Below are positions 24,604 to 29,739 of a DNA stretch of 64,000 nucleotides, one piece after another. The DNA lies in IMG/VR virus record IMGVR_UViG_3300032116_000057, positions 1 through 64,000 of that record. One strand, written 5' to 3'. The translations under genes and the position numbers were made by a program. Below the pieces are notes generated by a model. That model was not told the DNA's origin, did no database searches, and saw only the letters and a list, made by a program, of their open reading frames with translations. Within the stretch, counting starts at the first letter, position 1; every line of letters begins with the position of its first letter. The stretch is from a virus.

Positions 24604-25074
24604 CTAGCGACCTTCTTCGCTACCGTACTGCATATTCTCAGCTGGCTTGCGGGGGAGCATGCCAGGTTGGTTAGTTACATCTTCCCAGGGGATATCATCA
24701 ATGCCGGAATACTTCAAGTATTTGCCTGTGGAGTCAGATACTCGTAGATCTTCCCACATATCGACTGGGATGGGCTCTGAGTACATGATCCACTTACCAT
24801 CCCTAAAGATGATTACTAAGGTCTCTGTGCTCCTGTTATAGCCCATTACACGGGCTCTAGGAAAGCTCATATTAGTCGTAGGAGCAACAACTACCTCATA
24901 CCCTGGTCCAAATGGGTTATAGCCTGCATTTCCCTGATCAAGCAGGTTTGTAGGGGCGCCCATGCGATCCGCGATAGCTTGTTGTATATTAAAAGTTCTC
25001 TGGCCTTGTTGCTCTTCCGCCTCTTGCCTACGACGAAAATAGCTTGAATCTGTATTCATATTACGTCTGGCCAT
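24604..25074 (-). CDS. KTSC-domain protein
   Basis: 156 residues. After a Gln/Arg-rich N-terminal region, residues 68-130 (FPRARVMGYNRSTETLVIIF, then SEPIPVDMWEDL) match the KTSC domain, a small fold found near lysyl-tRNA synthetase C-termini and in phages. It is the first gene transcribed leftwards from the divergent region at 25075-25369. Role unknown. Confidence 0.65.
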   Translation of the reverse strand: MARRNMNTDSSYFRRRQEAEEQQGQRTFNIQQAIADRMGAPTNLLDQGNAGYNPFGPGYEVVVAPTTNMSFPRARVMGYNRSTETLVIIFRDGKWIMYSEPIPVDMWEDLRVSDSTGKYLKYSGIDDIPWEDVTNQPGMLPRKPAENMQYGSEEGR

Positions 25075-25284
25075 GAAAAATATGATACTCCCCCGGCTAC
25101 TGCCTGAAATGCTAAGACCCTGGAGTTATCCGGCCACTGCCTTGTGTTTTAGGTCGTAGCAGTTTGTTTTACCTGCCCGAAAGGTGGGAAGTTGGGGCGC
25201 TAAGGGTGGGGGGTGGCAAATCGATTTCTAAGGGGGTCGGTTCAGCAAACGCCAAAAGTTCAGGTTAGGTAGCCCTACTGCGTG

Positions 25285-25348
25285 GAGCACCTCGACAGCA
25301 TTTGTAGCATTGGTCGGGGTGCTCACTAGCCTATACACCTCGTATAGG
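25285..25348 (+). promoter_or_regulatory. Structured leader upstream of 25370 gene
   Basis: The 295-base divergent gap at 25075-25369 holds no gene. Near its right end a 12-bp stem with one G-T pair (25285-25296 with 25313-25324) is followed by a second hairpin CCTATAC-ACCTC-GTATAGG (25330-25348), then AGAAAGGA before the ATG. Promoters for both directions are expected here but I could not pick convincing boxes. Confidence 0.5.
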
Positions 25349-25369
25349 TGAAGACAGAAAGGATTTGAG

Positions 25370-25876
25370 ATGAAATCTCAAATAGAACTACTTCGCGACA
25401 TGGTTGCTGGCTCTACTACTCTCGTTATTGAGAATGTAGCCTCCGCCTTTACAAGCGAACTCGTTACCCACCCCAACTACCTTCTCCCTGAGAAGCCAAA
25501 CGCTTCCCAGCGTGGTCGTGCGTGGGCGGGTTATTACAACTCATTAGGCGTTAGTGCTGAGTTCCTAAAGACCAACATTACGCTTATCGGTCGTTATTTC
25601 GAGCGCATTGATGTTAGTGACCCAACTACTATCCTTGCTCAACTCGACGCTTTCCGTAAGGAAGACCTCGCTTCTAAGTTATTGAAGCAGAAGCAAAAGG
25701 AAGCCGACGGGTCAGCACTTACCTCCCGTTTGGAGAACTTGTCCGAAGTAATCAAAGAAATCGAGGAAAACCTCATTTCGCCAACTACCACGCAAAAGCA
25801 AGCGTATGCCGAAGCGTTGGATAGATTGACGGCACTACAAGAGTCATTCATGGCGAAAGAGTTAGCAGTAGCGTAA
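25370..25876 (+). CDS. Hypothetical helical protein
   Basis: 168 residues, soluble, mostly helical. It begins MKSQIELLRDMVAGSTTLVI; the C-terminal half (LENLSEVIKEIEENLISP, then EALDRLTALQESFMAKEL) has coiled-coil character. Its codon use looks more GC-rich than its neighbours. It opens the plus-strand accessory cluster, following a structured leader and followed by a long structured gene-free stretch. No family recognised. Confidence 0.65.
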   Translation: MKSQIELLRDMVAGSTTLVIENVASAFTSELVTHPNYLLPEKPNASQRGRAWAGYYNSLGVSAEFLKTNITLIGRYFERIDVSDPTTILAQLDAFRKEDLASKLLKQKQKEADGSALTSRLENLSEVIKEIEENLISPTTTQKQAYAEALDRLTALQESFMAKELAVA

Positions 25877-25881
25877 TAATC

Positions 25882-26366
25882 GTGATGTAAATCACATGGC
25901 AGGGGGAGTCTAGGCTCTCCCTGCCCCTATCTATGCTCATAGTTAGCATTTGGCTACTGCTTCTAGCGAACTCTCATCATTGAGAGTAAGAGCAGGTCTA
26001 GAGATTACCGCTTTCGCTATTAGCAGATAGTTCGCCTACTCCGATAGTCGGCGGATAACTATGGGTATAGATAGGGAGTGACCTAAACAATGCGAATTGC
26101 CTTTATTGGTAAGAGTAGCCTTGTCGGTCTGCTTTTCTCCCTTCGTATGTAGGCTACCTAAACCTTATCTTGTGTCTTCTGTCTAAGTAGAGAGCACGCC
26201 CCCGCCGACCCCTTTCATTTGTCGGTTGGGGCGTGTATCTCTATACCTTATGGCTTAGAGCATACATAGGAAGAACCCCCTTTCCTGTCGGCTATAACAC
26301 TTGGGTTTACACCTTTCTACCCTTGTTGGAACAACGCCTATTCCTGTGTATGCTCTTGGCTATAAG
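25882..26366 (+). ncRNA. Candidate structured RNA (interval A)
   Basis: A gene-free interval of about 500 bases packed with hairpins: GTGAT-GTAA-ATCAC (25882-25895, GNRA loop); GGCAGGG/CCCTGCC (25898-25925); ACTCTCA/TGAGAGT (25970-25987); a two-step stem ATAGTT/AACTAT with inner GCC-ACT/AGT-GGC (26027-26062); GTAGCCT/AGGCTAC (26115-26157); a long TAGAGA + CACGCCCC + GCCGAC hairpin (26188-26243); and a 16-bp long-range stem (26257-26272 with 26341-26356) with a single G-U wobble, capped outside by CTTAT/ATAAG right before the AAAGGAGG of the next gene. It may be an independent RNA or a regulatory leader. Confidence 0.55.
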
Positions 26367-26379
26367 AAAGGAGGTCGTT

Positions 26380-26589
26380 ATGCCAAAAGGCACGACTAAT
26401 AGCCAACGCAAGAATGGTAAAGCGTTCAAGAAGAACCCTGGACCAGCCCAACCCCCAAAGACTAACTTCACCCATGTAAATGGGCGTAGCCCTGAGGCTC
26501 ATGCTAAGCGTGAGGCTTGGAAAGCCATTGGCGGTAGAGCAGATAGTAATCACATTCCCCATTGGAAGACAGGAGTAGTCAATGCTTGA
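26380..26589 (+). CDS. Small basic protein
   Basis: 69 residues from the ATG at 26380, which has a very strong AAAGGAGG; the open frame upstream is part of the structured RNA interval. The protein is Lys/Asn/Pro-rich (SQRKNGKAFKKNPGPAQPPK) and ends in an AHAKREAWKAIGGRADSNHI segment. Its ribosome binding site abuts a long RNA stem, so translation may be controlled by RNA folding. No family recognised. Confidence 0.65.
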   Translation: MPKGTTNSQRKNGKAFKKNPGPAQPPKTNFTHVNGRSPEAHAKREAWKAIGGRADSNHIPHWKTGVVNA

Positions 26590-26716: not shown

Positions 26717-26766
26717 TGTAATGACCAACAAGGTCCCCGCGAAGTTTTTGCTGCGCAATGGGGAAG

Positions 26767-27567: not shown

Positions 27568-28314
27568 ATGGAAGTTGAAAATGAAAACAAACTTCCTACG
27601 TTAGCAGAGGTAGAACGTGAGTTCTTGAATGGTCGTTCGTATGGTTGGTCTCGTAGATCAATTAGTGAATACCATAAAGTTTCTGCAACAAGCGAATGGT
27701 ATAAATACCGAAACTATCTTCTAGAGTATCCCGGAACGTTGAAGGATGAAGATGTTAATTGGTGTATTAAAACTATTGGTTGCGGCAAACGTCATAGATC
27801 AGACACCTTGTTGCTTTATCGTATTGTTCCTTTAGATTACGTAAGAGAAAAGAGTTACAACTTTTCTTGGACTTCTCGTTTTGCGAGAGATGAAGAAAAC
27901 GATTGCTTCTACGAAATAAGTAGAATAGAAGCACGTTTTTTTATTGAAGAAGGAGCGTCTACGTATGACAAGCACTTTGCTGCGTGGCATAGAGACAGCA
28001 TGATGAAAGCCCATGGACTAGTAAAAGAAAGGAAGGTGACAGAAGAAATGTGTCCAAAAGGATGTCGCCCATCGTATTGCTATTGCAAACGTGAATGCGA
28101 CGATAAAAACCTCAAATATGAAATAAATGAGCATAGTATGGAAGTCGAAGTAACGGTCGGGTTCCGCACTATTTCATTGACTCTTGATGAGGCAGCAGAA
28201 TTAGCCTCATTCTTGGCAACAGCCAAAGAAGAAATCAAGAAGAAGAAAATTGCTGCGTTAGAGGCACAGCAAGACGAACTCAAGAAGCAACTTGAATCAG
28301 TAAAAGGTATGTAA
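27568..28314 (+). CDS. Hypothetical protein with central cysteine cluster
   Basis: 248 residues from the ATG at 27568 (AGAAAGG upstream); the longer frame to 27517 is unlikely. The N-terminal 150 residues are rich in Tyr, Arg and Glu (WSRRSISEYHKVSATSEWYK). A cluster MCPKGCRPSYCYCKREC (about residues 160-178) looks like a zinc knuckle. The C-terminus is a charged coiled coil (KEEIKKKKIAALEAQQDELK). The middle EVEVTVGFRTISLTLDEAAE resembles a short beta-helix module. Function unknown. Confidence 0.6.
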   Translation: MEVENENKLPTLAEVEREFLNGRSYGWSRRSISEYHKVSATSEWYKYRNYLLEYPGTLKDEDVNWCIKTIGCGKRHRSDTLLLYRIVPLDYVREKSYNFSWTSRFARDEENDCFYEISRIEARFFIEEGASTYDKHFAAWHRDSMMKAHGLVKERKVTEEMCPKGCRPSYCYCKRECDDKNLKYEINEHSMEVEVTVGFRTISLTLDEAAELASFLATAKEEIKKKKIAALEAQQDELKKQLESVKGM

Positions 28315-28459
28315 ATCTTCCGCACACACGAATAGGCTATCCATGAGAGGTAGATGTGTGGTTGGTCTTTTTAGTCGGTTACCTGAGGTAATAACGCGAC
28401 TCGTCACCTAAGCATGTGAAGGGATAAACTGCTTATCAACTACAAAAGAAAGGACACAA

Positions 28460-28825
28460 ATGCACGAAGGTAGAACAATCATGGATTATCCCGATGTGGA
28501 TAGTTTCTTTGATGATGTTGAACAAAACATGAAAGATAATGCTATTCCTGGGTTCAAGTTTTATCGTCTTTATGACCCATACAACGGCCGAGGTTTTGCG
28601 TTTCACTTTACAACCAAGGCTAAATATGATTATGGTTTTGAAATCATGCTTGGATTTACAGACAGTTTATTCAAGTTAGATTTGGATTTATCAACTCCAT
28701 TTGATGCTCGTTCATGGAATACAAAAGGTAACGAAGAGTCTGACCATTTGTATCCATTGCATCAAATTGGATTCAAAATCGCTGCATTCTTTACGCAGTT
28801 TTCTGTTGCTTTCAACAGACAGTAA
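28460..28825 (+). CDS. Hypothetical protein
   Basis: 121 residues after AGAAAGGACAC; an internal ATG (residue 8) is an alternative start. Aromatic-rich alpha/beta look (GFKFYRLYDPYNGRGFAFHF). It is followed by the 620-base structured gene-free interval B. No family recognised. Confidence 0.6.
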   Translation: MHEGRTIMDYPDVDSFFDDVEQNMKDNAIPGFKFYRLYDPYNGRGFAFHFTTKAKYDYGFEIMLGFTDSLFKLDLDLSTPFDARSWNTKGNEESDHLYPLHQIGFKIAAFFTQFSVAFNRQ

Positions 28826-29445
28826 TTCCGCCTAGTAGATGCATGCATCGAAAGGAAGGGAGTCGTAACCAACGACTATAAATAAGGGGTAAACGGGAAT
28901 GGGAATTGCCCGGCTACCAATAAGTGCGTTACATTCCTATTACAGACAGTAATAGATGTTATTGCATGGGGCGAATGCCTGAGTCCTGAGCATGACTCAC
29001 TAAAAACTGCTTATAGATTCTTGGAGACACATTGAATAGGCTGTTGATTATCACCGAGAGCTGAGTATGTATTCGGGAGACTATGTCTGAATACAAAGGG
29101 GGCGAAGAAGCATAAGGGTACGAACTATGGGGTCAGAGGCACCCAGTGGGTCACGTTAGTCCTCCCATAATGAGCGTAGATGCATAGTAAGAGACGCGAC
29201 CGAGACTATGTATGTAATTCTACAACGCAACAGAGGCCACGTTGTGAGTCTCACGATAATACCTTCAGTAATTCAATGTGTTTCCAAGTTCAAGTTGGAT
29301 GGCAGCACGAACACTGCGTGTTCACGATTGTCCATACCCAATAACTGGGCTAGCAGTCTAATCTAGTCCGCCAATGTAGATGTCAAAGTTTACATTGGCA
29401 CGCTCGTGTTATCCATAGTGGGTAGCACGTGGCAGAAAGGCACAC
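28826..29445 (+). ncRNA. Candidate structured RNA (interval B)
   Basis: A 620-base gap with no supportable gene on either strand. Hairpins: AGTCGT/ACGACT (28861-28877); GAGTC/GACTC (28981-28998); GTATTC-AGAC/GTCT-GAATAC with a GGG bulge (29069-29094); ATGCATAGT/ACTATGTAT with one G-U (29180-29213); TCCAA/TTGGA (29283-29299); GAACAC-TGC-GTGTTC (29309-29323); GCCAATGTA/TACATTGGC (29370-29399); CGTGTTATCC/GGGTAGCACG with two G-U pairs (29405-29429). The wobbles work only in plus-strand RNA. Size and phage context recall GOLLD- or ROOL-like giant RNAs, but no match was tested. Confidence 0.55.
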
Positions 29446-29739
29446 ATGATACTGAGAAAGAAGAAAGTTCTCAAACTGATTGAAGACATGATGCTTCGTT
29501 CTGAGATAGATGCTCAGGACTTAGACGACATGCACAGTCGTGCCTACCACTCTGGAGTCATTGACGGAATGGGAGACATTCTCTATGCTCTATCACCAAA
29601 TAGAGCAAGAAGGTTCCCCATTTCTATTCATTGGTTCGAAGAAGACGAGCAAGTATCCAAAAAAGAACTTGCCCGCATTCGAGAAGCAGAGAGGGAACGC
29701 ACGTTCGAGTATCTCAATCGTGAGAAAGAGGTAATCTAA
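29446..29739 (+). CDS. Hypothetical helical protein
   Basis: 97 residues, charged and helical (KVLKLIEDMMLRSEIDAQDL; KKELARIREAERERTFEYLN). AGAAAGG lies upstream. Its stop overlaps the next start by one base (TAATG), so it is coupled to the zinc-ribbon gene. Confidence 0.6.
   Translation: MILRKKKVLKLIEDMMLRSEIDAQDLDDMHSRAYHSGVIDGMGDILYALSPNRARRFPISIHWFEEDEQVSKKELARIREAERERTFEYLNREKEVI

Follow-up and report, generated by a model that had tools for sequence, protein, structure and literature searches.

A covarying pseudoknotted RNA and a recurrent small pseudoknot in an intergenic region of environmental phages

Structure of the intergenic region

The virus record IMGVR_UViG_3300032116_000057 from IMG/VR contains a gap of 620 bases without any usable gene, and the question is what this gap encodes. 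All coordinates refer to the window, that is, the analyzed stretch of 64,000 nucleotides (positions 1 to 64,000 of this 104 kb record). The limits of the gap are exact, as a stop codon ends the upstream gene at 28825 and the start codon of the following gene is at 29446; the longest ORFs with ATG, GTG or TTG starts inside it encode 54 and 52 amino acids. Many hairpins are present, in agreement with the first-pass annotation. The 620 bases are not a single RNA: the elements are conserved separately, and the large conserved RNA occupies only about 270 nt. Thus the gap is a composite of plus-strand structured RNA elements in which a core RNA is dominant:

28460-28825, plus strand: upstream gene, ORF of 121 aa without known domain
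28829-28888, plus strand: double-hairpin element of 60 bases (same linkers, changed stems in relatives)
28889-28979, plus strand: additional hairpins that separate the double hairpin from the small pseudoknot (profile search)
28980-29013, plus strand: small H-type pseudoknot of 34 bases (motif scan)
29014-29299, plus strand: core structured RNA, a conserved module of about 270 nt (covariance models; covariation in 13 sequences)
29370-29399, plus strand: leader hairpin of the next gene, GCCAAUGUAGA-UGUCAAAG-UUUACAUUGGC (covarying copies)
29446-29739, plus strand: downstream gene, ORF of 97 aa without known domain

The predicted folding energy of the gap is -203.8 kcal/mol on the plus strand (z -5.2, none of 20 shuffles as good) and -186.8 kcal/mol on the minus strand (z -3.1, also better than all 20 shuffles). 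Windows of 240 nt along the gap have z-scores of -2.6, +1.0 and -4.4, compared with the plus-strand mean of -1.05; at this window size other intergenic regions of the window have lower z-scores than the gap. The core alone folds with moderate energy (z -2.2). Folding energy alone is not decisive, and the proof comes from conservation and covariation.

Homologs and fold of the core RNA

The core is present in about 16 other IMG/VR contigs, several of them near-identical; two are near-identical to the window. A profile of the AAA ATPase from the same gene block retrieved 45 related loci (loci are denoted by L and a number). Among the nhmmer matches, L012 and L013 cover almost the whole interval (blastn identity 66%), and L014, L015 and L018 match its middle part. 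Further members, retrieved with two DNA patterns and with a profile of the 237-aa protein encoded downstream, were L057, L064, L065, L067, L071, L074, L078, L096/L110 and L104. Since L014/L015/L078, L064/L074 and L057/L067/L071 form near-identical sets, independent lineages number about ten at most. A covariance model built from 11 sequences then identified two remote homologs, L019 (94 bits, E 9e-25) and L016 (78 bits, E 5e-20). The part of the window shared by all homologs is 29014-29299.

An alignment of 13 sequences, fitted to the model, shows pairing in 97.8% of cells and double-sided changes in 34 of the 50 base pairs (shuffled mean 13.8; none of 500 shuffles reached the observed value). 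When the structures were slid by 1-3 columns, just 1-6 pairs with double changes remained. A sequence-only MAFFT alignment of 11 sequences, with the internal pseudoknot included, gave double changes in 26 of 58 pairs, compared with 3-8 in slid controls. Thus the two sides of the core helices covary beyond the controls. The family contains 46 G-U cells and 7 A-C cells, and therefore the plus-strand RNA is the conserved one. In the window itself there are three G-U pairs (29026-29282, 29040-29269, 29182-29211) against one C-A, so the plus-strand-specific wobble pairs reported earlier are real. All six frames of the core contain stop codons in all 13 aligned homologs. With the strong covariation and no small-ORF explanation left, the earlier proposal of a noncoding, plus-strand, phage-borne structured RNA holds.

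The elements of the fold are the following:

29020-29037, plus strand: closing helix P1, 5' arm (pairs with 29271-29288; compensatory changes)
29068-29095, plus strand: hairpin P3, whose loop carries the 5' strand of the internal pseudoknot (29079-29086)
29124-29171, plus strand: helix P4, 29124-29131 with 29164-29171 (double changes in 6 of 8 pairs)
29142-29150, plus strand: 3-bp hairpin P5 inside P4, 29142-29144 with 29148-29150 (double changes in 2 of 3 pairs)
29153-29161, plus strand: internal pseudoknot, 3' strand (pairs with 29079-29086 with one bulge; read from sequence)
29182-29211, plus strand: hairpin P6, 29182-29188 with 29205-29211 (double changes in 6 of 7 pairs)
29271-29288, plus strand: closing helix P1, 3' arm (inverted repeat, compensatory changes)

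The arms of P1 form an inverted repeat with 94% complementarity, that is, a helix of about 17 pairs. It is followed by a short unpaired step, helix P2, hairpin P3 (double changes in five of six pairs), P4 surrounding P5, and hairpin P6. P5 alternates among CCC/GGG, CAG/CUG and CGG/CCG across homologs. The loop of P3 pairs with a strand located between P5 and the 3' side of P4, and five of the seven pairs of this pseudoknot helix are doubly changed in the sequence-only alignment. As read from the sequences, its strands are UAACUAU/AUAGUUA in most homologs, UAACUGC/GUAGUUA in L012, GGCUAA/UUAGUCC in L018, ACUAAU/AUUAGU in L019 and GACUA..UGU/ACG..UAGUC in the window; in L016 the pseudoknot is not clear.

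Each record contains one convincing match to the core model; two extra matches in G003 score at most 7 bits. Minus-strand matches in L064 and L074 (27 bits) reflect the closing helix, which is nearly a palindrome and is matched there in its reverse complement. A candidate match of 29.7 bits at L111:3916-4199, with a score near these, keeps the closing helix and has a different interior. No convincing match was found in 29 other related viral records, and none in the named relatives Cantare, GMA6, DalanDe and ScarletRaider. The DNA pattern of the core is absent from the bacterial and archaeal genomes searched, and a blastn search with the 620 nt gave no match among named phages. Every homolog belongs to a single group of metagenomic phages. 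Judged by the ATPase, the closest named relatives are phages of Brevibacterium and Gordonia, and thus an actinobacterial host is plausible on the basis of sequence kinship.

Gene context

The ATPase and VWA genes lie downstream of the core, which belongs to a block of co-directional genes, is on the sense strand in every locus compared, and always directly precedes a gene. Its immediate neighbours vary: the downstream genes belong to several unrelated families, and the neighbouring proteins have no informative domain except the ATPase and VWA pair. Thus the core occurs regardless of the identity of the neighbouring gene, and no conserved association with one gene or pathway was found.

Candidate intrinsic terminators occur at most about 70 nt past the core in L014/L015/L078, L074 and L096, with a gene soon after. 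In most homologs there is no terminator just downstream. In several core-bearing phages a start codon lies within about 30 nt after the core (L071, L104) or immediately after the terminator. As this leaves no obvious room for a promoter, the RNA would have to share a transcript with the next gene. A scan for sigma-70 promoters gave no excess over shuffles and identified no promoter.

A segment UAAUACACC..CCCCGCGAA lies between the upstream stop codon and the core in L014, L015, L057, L065, L071, L074, L078, L096 and L104. L016 and L018 have similar segments at other intergenic sites, and CCCCGCGAA is also found at window position 26735.

Comparison with known RNA families

The first-pass annotation had likened the interval to the giant phage RNAs GOLLD and ROOL by length and setting. 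Rfam covariance models do not support this identity: neither the window nor the loci of 14 relatives have a match to GOLLD, ROOL or another large RNA. The window matches no Rfam family at gathering score, and in 28200-29600 a search up to E 10 gave only three chance-level snoRNA matches. In the relatives' loci the only matches are tRNAs and a single hammerhead type II ribozyme, which scores above the gathering threshold and lies at L024:304-365 in a related phage contig. The similarity in length is also lost, as the conserved large RNA has about 270 nt and not 620. No tRNA was found in the window, in another 40 kb of the record scanned outside it, or in any core-bearing locus tested, whereas most of the coreless relatives tested carry tRNAs; the window also contains no tmRNA.

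GOLLD forms a homo-multimeric cage and ROOL a homo-octameric one. To our knowledge, neither has a settled function, and few large structured phage RNAs are known. Both were described as large ornate phage RNAs (PMC12286853). Like GOLLD, the core is a phage-borne ornate noncoding RNA of unknown function; however, many GOLLD members exceed 800 nt, and the core has neither an Rfam match nor a tRNA island nearby. It shares with ROOL the phage location and an ornate fold with pseudoknots, but is smaller, differs in the same two respects, and has a different fold as far as the models tell. No earlier description of these RNAs was found in the literature searched, most subscription journals being outside it. 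By Rfam and this literature, the core appears to be a new pseudoknotted RNA unrelated to the catalogued families.

Possible function of the core

The core is probably functional as RNA, and seems to work independently of the adjoining gene. The best explanation, which we put forward tentatively, is that it may be a trans-acting noncoding RNA that is set free from an early polycistronic transcript. The core would be transcribed within the early, co-directional phage gene block, fold autonomously with its ends joined by the closing helix, and be released or protected as a discrete noncoding RNA; the intrinsic terminator just past it could set the 3' end in at least three lineages. This is suggested by the double changes in 34 of 50 pairs, the support for the pseudoknot, the remote homologs and the G-U bias, as well as by the single match per record, the varying neighbours on a constant strand in a constant block, and the terminators after the core. 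On the other hand, the lack of promoter room and the transcript shared with the next gene count against a trans-acting RNA and fit an element acting in cis as well.

The latter is the main rival, possible though rather less likely. The core may be a gene-independent element acting on the polymerase or ribosome, that is, an antiterminator, attenuator or insulator, so that whichever gene follows is read through or controlled. The constant sense-strand position in a co-directional block agrees with this, as do the terminators placed between the core and the next gene with almost no promoter room in three lineages. However, most homologs have no such terminator, and the core is large for a simple antiterminator. 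The put RNA of phage HK022, a phage operon antiterminator that could act in cis whatever the gene, is much smaller and simpler.

A riboswitch or leader specific to one gene or pathway would explain the location directly before a gene at every locus and the compact pseudoknotted fold. But the neighbours change while the core stays, the downstream genes being of unrelated families, and there is no Rfam match; thus this explanation is unlikely. About equally improbable is a new RNA-only particle, a multimeric cage of the GOLLD/ROOL type, suggested by analogy: large ornate phage RNAs with a pseudoknot and no gene partner are known from these families (PMC12286853), but the core is half their size or less and lacks both the tRNA island and an Rfam match. 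Finally, a conserved small ORF or chance folding, to which only the 52-54-aa ORFs in the gap and the moderate folding of the core alone could point, is extremely improbable, as the stops in every frame of all homologs, the compensatory changes and the G-U bias speak against both and rule out the ORF.

The small pseudoknot and other leader elements

The sequence of 28980-29013 is UGAGUC-C-UGAGCA-U-GACUCA-CUAAAAAC-UGCUUA, and the general form of this pseudoknot is NNNC-C-UGAGCA-U-GNNN-nUAAAC-UGCUCA. A pattern that fixed only the second stem and the loop ends, leaving the first stem free, matched at least 120 viral stretches in IMG/VR (L157-L276). Even so, the first stem covaries strongly: of 111 distinct loci among the matches listed, 109 form its pairs 2 and 3, whereas shuffling gave means of 50 and 55 and maxima of 65 and 69. 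An ORF starts within 150 nt downstream in 71 of 79 loci, at a median distance of 26 nt. The distance to the start is 15-60 nt in 68% of cases, compared with 20% at random positions; as this control was not restricted to intergenic DNA, a part of the signal is expected for any intergenic position. By inspection, the genes that follow are diverse; one of the proteins has distant relatives in Streptomyces phages. The small pseudoknot is absent from the Rfam results.

The translational operator of T4 gene 32 is a pseudoknot of about 30 nt just 5' of an unstructured stretch and the ribosome-binding site (PMC535899). The small pseudoknot, compared with it by description only, is alike in size and in its position shortly before the ribosome-binding site and start. 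However, the T4 operator serves one gene, that of a single-strand binding protein, whereas the small pseudoknot precedes many unrelated genes and was not found to control a gene of this kind. The STAXI motif, in which two or three pseudoknots are arranged in tandem near DNA-handling genes and frequently carry UUCG loops (PMC2864571), is likewise a recurrent small pseudoknot near mobile or phage-type genes, but the element described here is mostly single and precedes diverse genes.

A second copy is found in the window at 28404-28435. It belongs to a second composite leader, 28312-28452, formed by a hairpin with the loop CCUGAGGUAA and the small pseudoknot, and conserved in L014-L016, L018, L021-L023, L065, L071 and L078.

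The double hairpin has the layout CGCCUAGUA, GAUGC/GCAUC hairpin, GAAAGGAAGG, AGUCGU/ACGACU hairpin, AUAAAUAAGGG. Its pattern matched eleven viral stretches; copies with changed stems occur in L012, L025, L029 and L277-L282, and the linkers around CGCCUAGUA and AUAAAUAA are invariant. In L278-L282 it leads almost directly into the small pseudoknot. The profile of 28889-28979 matches just the window and L012 among the loci read. Covarying copies of the leader hairpin precede gene starts in L014, L015, L057, L071 and L078. This hairpin and the small pseudoknot are elements separate from the core, probably serving the translation of the next cistron or mRNA stability.

It is conceivable, though doubtful, that the core represents a new class of autonomous phage noncoding RNAs and that the small pseudoknot serves, between phage genes, as a general expression signal not described before. 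Candidates for the core's own activity in such a class are a multimeric RNA particle, an RNA acting on the host polymerase or ribosome, and a ribozyme. With its compact, covariation-backed fold, clear boundaries and variable gene context, the core family is tractable for in vitro folding, cryo-EM and expression tests. That the small pseudoknot recurs before the start codons of unrelated genes suggests that environmental phages have a post-transcriptional signal of a general kind, which can be tested directly with reporters.

Other RNA-like regions

The intergenic region 25860-26390 has folding z-scores of -5.4 to -6.8, among the lowest in the window, and is conserved in L012 and partly elsewhere. 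The gap between divergent genes at 25070-25372, conserved in eight relatives, is a candidate for a further RNA or a control region. A further large RNA-like repeat, with the small pseudoknot at its end and no Rfam match, was found at L024:3405-3620, L025:6338-6600 and L029:7504-8132; in L029 it is in tandem.
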